A stretch of DNA of 64,000 nt, taken from Halohasta litchfieldiae. GTDB taxonomy: Archaea; Halobacteriota; Halobacteria; Halobacteriales; Haloferacaceae. The translations under genes and the position numbers were made by a program. The notes beneath the pieces were generated by a model. It saw only the letters and a program-made list of their open reading frames with translations, did no database searches and was not told the DNA's origin. Shown piece by piece: positions 4,535 through 7,686 of this stretch (its first letter is position 1; every line of letters starts with the position of its first letter). Where the stretch lies: the NCBI RefSeq assembly GCF_002788215.1, contig NZ_CP024845.1, forward strand, positions 62,001-126,000, given 5' to 3'.

Positions 4535-5603
4535 GAGGGTGTCATAGAATAGTTCTCATAGCGTGATGACGGTGCTTCCTGGATTGTCTCCGCGTTCGTC
4601 GTTGGTGATCGCAATAACGAGACGAAGGCACAGCGCGAGGAACACTTGTGCTCGTGCGTGGACGCGGCCTCGGGCGCGAACGTGCCCGAGGCCGCAGTCC
4701 TTGACGGCGTCGTTGGTTCGTTCGACTCCACTCCGGCGGTTGTACGTCTCGTCTAGCGTCGATTGCTTCAGCTGAACGTCCTCGCTGTGTTCGTCGATGC
4801 GGGCTTCGACCCTGTACTCGATGTCTTTCGGATCGTCGGTGTTTCGTGCGTTGTACGGAGCGACTGGCACGACCCCTGCGGCCAGCAGGTGGTCGTGCCA
4901 GCCGAGCGTGTCGTAGGCGCTGTCTCCAAGCATCCAGATCGGTTTCTCGACGGCGAGCGCGTCACACGTGACGCGCATCGCCGTCTCCTCTGGCGCTTGC
5001 TTGCTCTCGGTGAACTCCGCGGCAATCGGGATCTTTTGCCCGGTCGAGACGATCGTACAGCCGTAGCCGTGGTAGTACTCTTCGGCGGTTGGATCGTAGC
5101 CTTTCGACGCGTCTTGGTCGGCGGGCATCGTCCTCACGTCGGTGGAATCGATGGAGTAGGTCAAGTCGAGCAGGCCGCGGCAGGCGGCCTGCTCGACGAG
5201 GCGGTCGAAGACCTCGTCGACGACGTGTTCGAGGTCGGTGAGGAAGCGATCGACCGCGTCTCTCGACGGCGGTCGATCGAAGCCACAGCTGAGCCAGACG
5301 ACCGTGTTCTGGAGTTCTCGCGTGACTGGACGGATGCCGTAGACGTTCTTGTAGTAGCAGTGCAGGAACGCTCGGAAGAGTGCTGGTGGGTGATGATCTC
5401 GTGTTCGCCCCCGGCGAGCGGGGGCGAACACATCGAATTCTTCGAGAAAGTCGAACTCAAGATGCTCGAACAACGCGAGCGTCTCGGTCGCCATTACATT
5501 GAAGAACTCGTCGATAGAAGTCTCCTCTTGCAGGATGCTGGCGCTCGTAGACACAGTTCCAACATCCTGCGTCTTCGTGTGTGACGCTTTCTATGACACC
5601 CTC
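4535..5603 (-). mobile_element. Intact IS4/IS5-superfamily insertion sequence
   Basis: A complete 1069-bp element. The ends are perfect 15-bp inverted repeats, GAGGGTGTCATAGAA at 4535-4549 and its complement at 5589-5603. It is flanked by a 6-bp direct repeat TCCTAC (4529-4534 and 5604-5609). It contains a single transposase gene. It landed in the intergenic space between the small acidic gene and squalene synthase, without breaking a gene. Perfect ends and target duplication point to recent movement. Confidence 0.92.
4556..5554 (-). CDS. DDE transposase of the second IS
   Basis: A 332-residue transposase filling nearly the whole element. Triad context: YSIDSTDVRTM (first Asp), MLGDSAYDTL (second Asp), and YNRRSGVERTNDAVK, matching Y-(2)-R-(3)-E-(6)-K. 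A long N-terminal helical domain precedes the catalytic core. It is not related in sequence to the transposase at 952-1773 beyond the fold. Full length, no frameshift. The exact IS subgroup was not determined. Confidence 0.9.
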   Translation of the reverse strand: MSTSASILQEETSIDEFFNVMATETLALFEHLEFDFLEEFDVFAPARRGRTRDHHPPALFRAFLHCYYKNVYGIRPVTRELQNTVVWLSCGFDRPPSRDAVDRFLTDLEHVVDEVFDRLVEQAACRGLLDLTYSIDSTDVRTMPADQDASKGYDPTAEEYYHGYGCTIVSTGQKIPIAAEFTESKQAPEETAMRVTCDALAVEKPIWMLGDSAYDTLGWHDHLLAAGVVPVAPYNARNTDDPKDIEYRVEARIDEHSEDVQLKQSTLDETYNRRSGVERTNDAVKDCGLGHVRARGRVHARAQVFLALCLRLVIAITNDERGDNPGSTVITL

Positions 5604-6832: not shown

Positions 6833-6853
6833 ATTATTTATTATTTATTATTT
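6833..6853. repeat. Three tandem copies of ATTATTT
   Basis: Three perfect tandem 7-mers at 6833-6839, 6840-6846 and 6847-6853. They lie at the very 3' end of the RNA-ligase-like gene and supply its last codons (INNK) and stop. On the plus strand it is a T/A tract, on the minus strand an A-rich tract, so it is not an obvious terminator for the minus-strand gene. Confidence 0.9.
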
Positions 6854-7686
6854 ATATACGCTTGTATCCGGGCGGCGAGTGCTGACCGAAACGTGCCCAT
6901 GTCGACGCCCCGATCTCCGAACGTCCGCGCGGGGAGTCCACGAGTGATCTCCTCTACGGCGCGCTCGACGAGGGCCTCAACGGTCACTGGCCGACCCTGC
7001 TCGGCCAACCGCTTGCTGAGCCGCCGAAACCGCTGGTCTGTCCCGTACGTTGCGACGAGGTCTTCGGCGGTCGTCTCGGTTGGTTCGTTCGCTTCCGTCG
7101 ACTCGGTCGCGTGGGTATCGGGACTGGTGAGCCTTCCACGGTGGCCCTGTTTGTCTCGGATGACGACGCCTGCGGCCGGGCCGTCATACCACGCTGACTG
7201 CGGCATCGTATACGCCTCGGGGTTGAAATCCCGGGCACGAACCTCCTGTTCGATGGCGTTGACTGCCTGCAAGCCGAGTCGACCGAAGATACCGTCGACG
7301 GCATCCGGCGGCCGGAACGCTTCGGCCTCGGCCGACCAGATATCGTACCCTAAAAACGACGGCAGCCGGTCCCACTCGTAGTCGATGCCCTGATACTGCG
7401 TTGCAATCCCGAAAAAGACGATTGCCTCGACGTCGTCGACCGCCGCGCGGAGCGCCTCGCGGTCGAGGTGCGTCTGGACGTGTCGAACCGCATGCTGATA
7501 CTGAGCTGGAAGCCCATCGGGGCTGTCGTAGACGTGGTCGGCGTCACCGAACTGGATCATGCCGGAGTCTCTGAGCCGAAATCGAAACGGCGCGCCCGCC
7601 ACGTGCTCAAGAATCCAGAGGTGACCCGAGTCCAGTAGCTCGGCGGGGGCGTCGTCGACGTGCGGAGTAGATGGGTGAAATTTCAT
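6841..7686 (-). CDS. RNA-ligase-fold protein lacking catalytic residues
   Basis: A 281-residue member of the Rnl2-like RNA ligase / nucleotidyltransferase family by overall pattern: an N-terminal HLWILE-V-G-PFRF block (motif I), FFG-AT-Y-DYEWD-PSFLGYDIW (motifs III/IIIa), WYDGPA-GVVIR (motif IV), a basic stretch (motif V) and a helical C-terminal domain. The residues needed for chemistry are changed: His28 where the adenylated Lys of KxDG should be, Ala30 for the Asp, Ile94 for the motif III Glu, Ala172 for the motif IV Glu, and Arg185 in motif V. The frame is otherwise full length and haloarchaeal in codon use. Probably a non-catalytic RNA-binding or regulatory protein, or a decaying gene. 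The family assignment comes from remembered motifs. Confidence 0.65.
   Translation of the reverse strand: MKFHPSTPHVDDAPAELLDSGHLWILEHVAGAPFRFRLRDSGMIQFGDADHVYDSPDGLPAQYQHAVRHVQTHLDREALRAAVDDVEAIVFFGIATQYQGIDYEWDRLPSFLGYDIWSAEAEAFRPPDAVDGIFGRLGLQAVNAIEQEVRARDFNPEAYTMPQSAWYDGPAAGVVIRDKQGHRGRLTSPDTHATESTEANEPTETTAEDLVATYGTDQRFRRLSKRLAEQGRPVTVEALVERAVEEITRGLPARTFGDRGVDMGTFRSALAARIQAYINNK

Follow-up and report, generated by a model that had tools for sequence, protein, structure and literature searches.

The window, i.e., the whole stretch of 64,000 nucleotides analyzed here, belongs to the genome of Halohasta litchfieldiae (3.33 Mb, a single contig). On its minus strand, positions 6841–7686 carry a complete frame of 281 amino acids, which starts with an ATG at 7686, ends with a TAA at 6841, and contains no internal stop; the plus strand across the same interval is interrupted by stops. 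An earlier note on this DNA had called the frame complete without naming its strand, and the minus-strand frame is indeed intact. The homologues of the product, its AlphaFold2 model (pLDDT 92.8), and the Foldseek matches of this model to RNA ligases designate it as a putative pseudoenzyme of the Rnl2 type. Two domains can be delimited, both on the minus strand: a nucleotidyltransferase domain (residues 1–190, positions 7117–7686), defined by the strand/helix pattern of the model and by the extent of PF09414 in intact relatives (residues 21–182); and a C-terminal helical domain (residues 207–281, positions 6844–7068), defined by the model and by alignment with the C-terminal domain of T4 Rnl2.

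Within Halohasta genomes, the position of this locus is kept. The downstream gene, found in all four Halohasta genomes, encodes a squalene/phytoene synthase (PF00494; 5659–6738, minus strand) and is probably functionally unrelated. An AT-rich repeat, TTATTATTTATTATTTATATA, at 6836–6860, overlaps the end of the pseudoenzyme gene and might act as promoter for phytoene synthase. Two DDE transposase genes (PF01609) lie nearby, at 955–1773 and 4559–5554, both on the minus strand; the second adjoins the phytoene synthase gene, and no clustered counterpart is present there in the other Halohasta genomes. Directly upstream, a divergent gene encodes a calcineurin-like phosphoesterase (PF00149; 7703–8662, plus strand) in three Halohasta genomes. 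Phosphatases of this class are part of the bacterial Pnkp proteins of RNA repair, and a role of the phosphoesterase as an RNA-end phosphatase is conceivable; the two genes were seen paired in Halohasta only. No conserved gene partner was detected outside this genus among 40 loci, and Pfam and PADLOC scans of 138 neighboring proteins returned scattered families, with no enrichment in defense or RNA pathways. The pseudoenzyme itself has no PADLOC match.

In alignments with intact relatives and with T4 Rnl2, the residues that perform the ligase chemistry are all replaced. The catalytic Lys of motif I is a His (codon 28, CAC, 7603–7605), the Asp of the same motif an Ala (codon 30, GCG, 7597–7599), the Glu of motif III an Ile (codon 94, ATT, 7405–7407), the Glu of motif IV an Ala (codon 172, GCA, 7171–7173), and the Lys of motif V an Arg (codon 185, AGG, 7132–7134), all these codons being read on the minus strand. 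The earlier note had assigned each of these five residues correctly, and intact haloarchaeal homologues present K, D, E, E, and K at the positions of H28, A30, I94, A172, and R185. It had overlooked a sixth loss in the pocket, at codon 49 (7540–7542, minus strand), where an Ala replaces an Arg present in 97% of intact relatives. This conserved Arg is likely that of motif Ia, R55 of Rnl2 aligning one off, to position 48.

The Halohasta litchfieldiae protein matches no ligase family in Pfam or NCBIfam, PF09414 and TIGR01209 (Rnl3) both being unmatched. Relatives with intact motifs, 45–54% identical to it, match PF09414 RNA_ligase (E 5e-12 to 4e-17), as do 29 of the 41 aligned family members in total, and one tested intact member matches the PHROG 548 RNA ligase over residues 1–254. 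The protein shares with the T4 Rnl2 family its predicted fold, its motif spacing, and probably its C-terminal helical domain, but it differs by the replacement of all the catalytic positions and by a sequence that falls below a PF09414 match. Of 60 near genomes, 33 contain a relative; across the order (391 genomes, sampled at one per species), 211 do, mostly as a single copy with an open frame throughout, so that about half of these genomes have none. Because the gene is patchy across genomes and sometimes plasmid-borne, this haloarchaeal family is an accessory function. The plasmid-borne copies are named RNA ligase family protein or hypothetical protein by NCBI.

The closest viral relatives are gp217 of HGTV-1, a haloarchaeal tailed virus, and the ligases of Twort-like staphylococcal phages. 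Gp217 is 28% identical to an intact relative (L041) and colinear with it into the C-terminal domain; unlike the pseudoenzyme, this viral protein has an intact K-D-E-E-K set. The Kayvirus GH15 ligase has the same set and, since these phage outgroups (the two viral relatives whose motifs were read) are both K-D-E-E-K, the intact state is ancestral. Scans of genome contigs with a single protein, and of viral contigs with the family profile, gave no relatives.

As sequence searches of the PDB gave no relative of the pseudoenzyme, structures had to be compared. The AlphaFold2 model, built from an alignment of 41 haloarchaeal sequences, has a pLDDT of 92.8 and a pTM of 0.88, although this alignment contains intact ligases whose fold could be favored. 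Foldseek relates the model to archaeal Rnl (5d1o, 2vug) and to T4 Rnl2 (2hvq, 2hvr), with E values from 8e-8 to 1e-6, and further to the Naegleria ligase and T4 Rnl1. The nucleotidyltransferase fold of RNA ligases is thus confidently predicted for this protein. Its best structural matches are the archaeal Rnl3 enzymes (TIGR01209; PAB1020, MthRnl), which have the RNA ligase fold but constitute a separate family, of which an intact gene lies elsewhere in the same genome. A global profile alignment with T4 Rnl2 (hhalign, one template, E 2e-4) is colinear into the C-terminal domain and places K35, H37, E99, E204, and K225 of Rnl2 at positions 28, 30, 94, 172, and 185. R266 and D292 of Rnl2 have an essential role. 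The first corresponds to R219, present in the pseudoenzyme and an Arg in 75 of the 89 members that have neither the Lys of motif I nor the Glu of motif IV (the dead members, hereafter); the position of the second is a Glu in the pseudoenzyme and variable among the dead members. Moreover, identity to intact members is 37% in the C-terminal domain vs. 59% in the ligase domain, and this faster divergence suggests that the function of the C-terminal domain may have shifted.

The losses bear on the chemistry. Of the 39 columns that are invariant in 32 intact members, four are changed in the pseudoenzyme (K28, D30, E94, and E172), and all the 35 others are conserved. The concentration of changes on these four columns is significant (Fisher p about 1e-5), and although the four belong to the set by definition, the fact that nothing else was lost is informative. 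When the threshold is lowered to 96%, five further changes appear in the pseudoenzyme (R49A, R51H, H97Q, D155N, and A211V). The 89 dead members retain the other invariant positions at a median of 0.96, vs. 0, 0.53, 0.10, and 0 at columns 28, 30, 94, and 172, the zeros at 28 and 172 being a consequence of how this group was defined. Most dead members have a bulky residue (Leu, Trp, His, or Tyr) at position 28, which suggests that the pocket may be filled or plugged. On the side of the charges, the pseudoenzyme keeps 12 of 16 conserved basic positions, 28 and 49 being the pocket residues among the four lost.

The loss of the active site, which could not be seen from a single sequence, is genus-wide in Halohasta and recurs across the order. 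Halohasta litorea, Halohasta salina, and the window protein have all lost four of the residues (Lys and Asp of motif I, Glu of motif IV, and Lys of motif V), and position 94 is a Glu in litorea, a Gln in salina, and an Ile in the window protein. Of the 138 distinct haloarchaeal members, just 32 have the full K-D-E-E set, and in 89 the Lys of motif I and the Glu of motif IV are both missing. A tree was inferred with the motif columns removed; under unordered parsimony, it requires 12 changes at position 28, 15 at 94, and 9 at 172, and the set taken as a whole requires 10. When the tree is rooted with phage sequences and regain is disallowed, 16–19 losses per position and 18 for the set are obtained, this tree omitting very divergent long-branch members, such as L030–L035, whose placement is uncertain. 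We estimate from these reconstructions that the active site was lost roughly 10–18 times in haloarchaea, a range and not a count, since this is a quick tree with many weak forks. Independently of any tree, intact and lost states are both present within Halorussus, Halopenitus, Natronomonas, and Halogeometricum; for instance, Halopenitus malekzadehii is KDEE and Halopenitus persicus HDEA. The losses also seem to be ordered. Indeed, no member without Lys28 retains Glu172, and Glu172 is gone in 14 of the 48 members that keep Lys28, which indicates that the motif IV Glu was lost before the Lys. Several members (L061 and L102, both KDAEK, L084, L104, and others) present one catalytic loss with most else intact and are useful intermediates for probing this order.

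Such a pattern could in principle reflect ordinary decay, i.e., the drift of a gene that no longer has a purpose. In Halohasta, the pseudoenzyme evolves faster than its neighbors (61–64% identity vs. 69–92%), and the absence of the family from about half of the haloarchaeal genomes would also fit such a drift. However, the frames are open throughout, the losses hit the chemistry, and the locus is unchanged across the genus. Moreover, a GY94-type pairwise fit between Halohasta salina and Halohasta litorea gives an omega of 0.128 (dN/dS of 0.13), which denotes purifying selection, omega = 1 being rejected. The other pairs without the Lys have dN/dS values of 0.08–0.43, mostly below 0.26, the highest being those of two close pairs from one genus (g28), and the pairs keeping the Lys range from 0.08 to 0.26; for the L001/L003 pair, synonymous sites are saturated and omega is meaningless. 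Omega = 1 was rejected for all the pairs fitted, with or without the Lys, and the similarity of the two groups argues against decay, which we therefore hold to be highly improbable. The earlier view of a pseudoenzyme rather than a randomly decaying gene is thus sustained by the predicted fold, the fact that the losses hit the chemistry, the kept locus, the purifying selection, and the parallel losses. A pseudoenzyme is homologous to enzymes, lacks their catalytic residues, and is maintained by selection, and all of this applies here, as judged from sequence.

Another possibility is that Rnl3 assumed the ligation function, so that the loss of the active site was tolerated. The Halohasta litchfieldiae genome does contain, outside the window, an intact archaeal Rnl3 (L167, motif I EEKLNG, at G000:C1:152569–153624). 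However, only 129 of the 391 sampled haloarchaeal genomes have an Rnl3, and 70 of the 79 genomes with a Lys-less member are without one, so that the family does not generally depend on Rnl3. Coexistence with Rnl3 is more frequent for intact members (12/31), a comparison that is only indicative, the genomes being related. As a family-wide cause, replacement by Rnl3 is hence disfavored, and we give it next to no credence. The same genome also carries, outside the window, RtcB (179825–181132).

Could the protein still catalyze part of the reaction? In MthRnl, the K97A mutant does not adenylate but performs step 3, and a double mutant of motifs I and V is dead in all steps; catalytic-Lys mutants keep step 3 partly in T4 Rnl2 and fully in MthRnl (PMC3514331). 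In T4 Rnl2, AMP is contacted by E99, R55, F119, and K227, and the counterparts of the residues lost in the pseudoenzyme hold it in place (PMC3149579). Taken together, these mutants and contacts make ATP-dependent ligation by the pseudoenzyme very unlikely and step-3 joining unlikely. A ligase restricted to step 3 on pre-adenylated RNA, or one with rewired chemistry as proposed for DpRNL, would find some basis in these Lys mutants, in the modeling of a deviant Rnl2 whose contacts with ATP are rewired (PMC4599027), and in R185, by which one basic charge remains in motif V. On the other hand, both Glu are gone too, the MthRnl double mutant of motifs I and V has no activity left in any step, and the dead members show no new conserved Lys, K179 being equally present in intact ones. 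DpRNL, the deviant RNA ligase 2 of Diplonema, is also an Rnl2 with substituted AMP-pocket residues, but its motif I Lys is present and activity has been proposed for it, whereas the pseudoenzyme has neither the nucleophile nor the two Glu (PMC4599027). We consequently see very little chance of residual catalysis.

We rather think it probable that this dead Rnl2-type ligase binds RNA ends or nicks and acts by occupancy, without catalysis. Judged from sequence and model, its ATP/AMP pocket is dismantled, having lost the nucleophile Lys and the Asp of motif I, the Arg of motif Ia, the Glu of motifs III and IV, and the Lys of motif V. The protein would not form the ligase–AMP intermediate, and ligation would almost certainly be impossible, even with pre-adenylated RNA. 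The basic residues and the C-terminal domain that remain point to RNA binding, and we propose on this basis that they would engage RNA ends or nicks in duplex RNA; the bound protein would protect, bridge, or mark broken RNA and possibly pass it on to a further repair enzyme (e.g., RtcB). The role of RNA-end sensor that the earlier note put forward as a possibility would agree with these same features. Against this reading stand the Rnl2 D292 position (a Glu here and variable in dead members), the faster divergence of the C-terminal domain, the basic charge left in motif V, the intact ligases in the alignment behind the model, and the finding that no conserved operon links the gene to an RNA pathway. 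A pseudoenzyme with a non-RNA function, i.e., a scaffold between proteins or a binder of another small ligand, must also be considered. Several residues (H22, W24, Y103, and E148 among them) hardly vary in either dead or intact members, and H22 and W24 are missing from phage ligases, which hints at a contact specific to haloarchaea. As their conservation is just as high in intact members, these residues do not necessarily signal a new function, and RNA agrees better with the basic residues and the C-terminal Arg that were retained; we regard a non-RNA function as unlikely, if still worth weighing. To return to RNA-end binding, its fuller version, in which an Rnl2-derived protein is mainly a noncatalytic binder of RNA ends or nicks and selection has repeatedly favored removal of the chemistry, the motif IV Glu before the Lys, is one that we advance tentatively.

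Our literature searches, which covered mostly journals outside subscription, found no description of RNA-ligase pseudoenzymes or of this haloarchaeal family; a related hypothesis paper in mBio concerns Rnl3 and HARP, and not the Rnl2-type haloarchaeal family (PMC12153264). An Rnl2-type fold has probably been turned into a pseudoenzyme many times over, and the annotation "RNA ligase family protein" covers many proteins that are probably unable to ligate. Sister species with and without the active site, together with losses that occurred in parallel about ten times or more, allow one to test what a ligase fold does without its chemistry and to ask whether the intact members still ligate. If the chemistry was indeed repeatedly removed from a noncatalytic binder, the family would offer a natural, replicated experiment in the conversion of an enzyme into a binder. 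At its margin, the very divergent members L030–L035 (about 29–35% identity) have a rewritten pocket and may form a separate subfamily, and L032–L035 carry an extra insert after residue 47.
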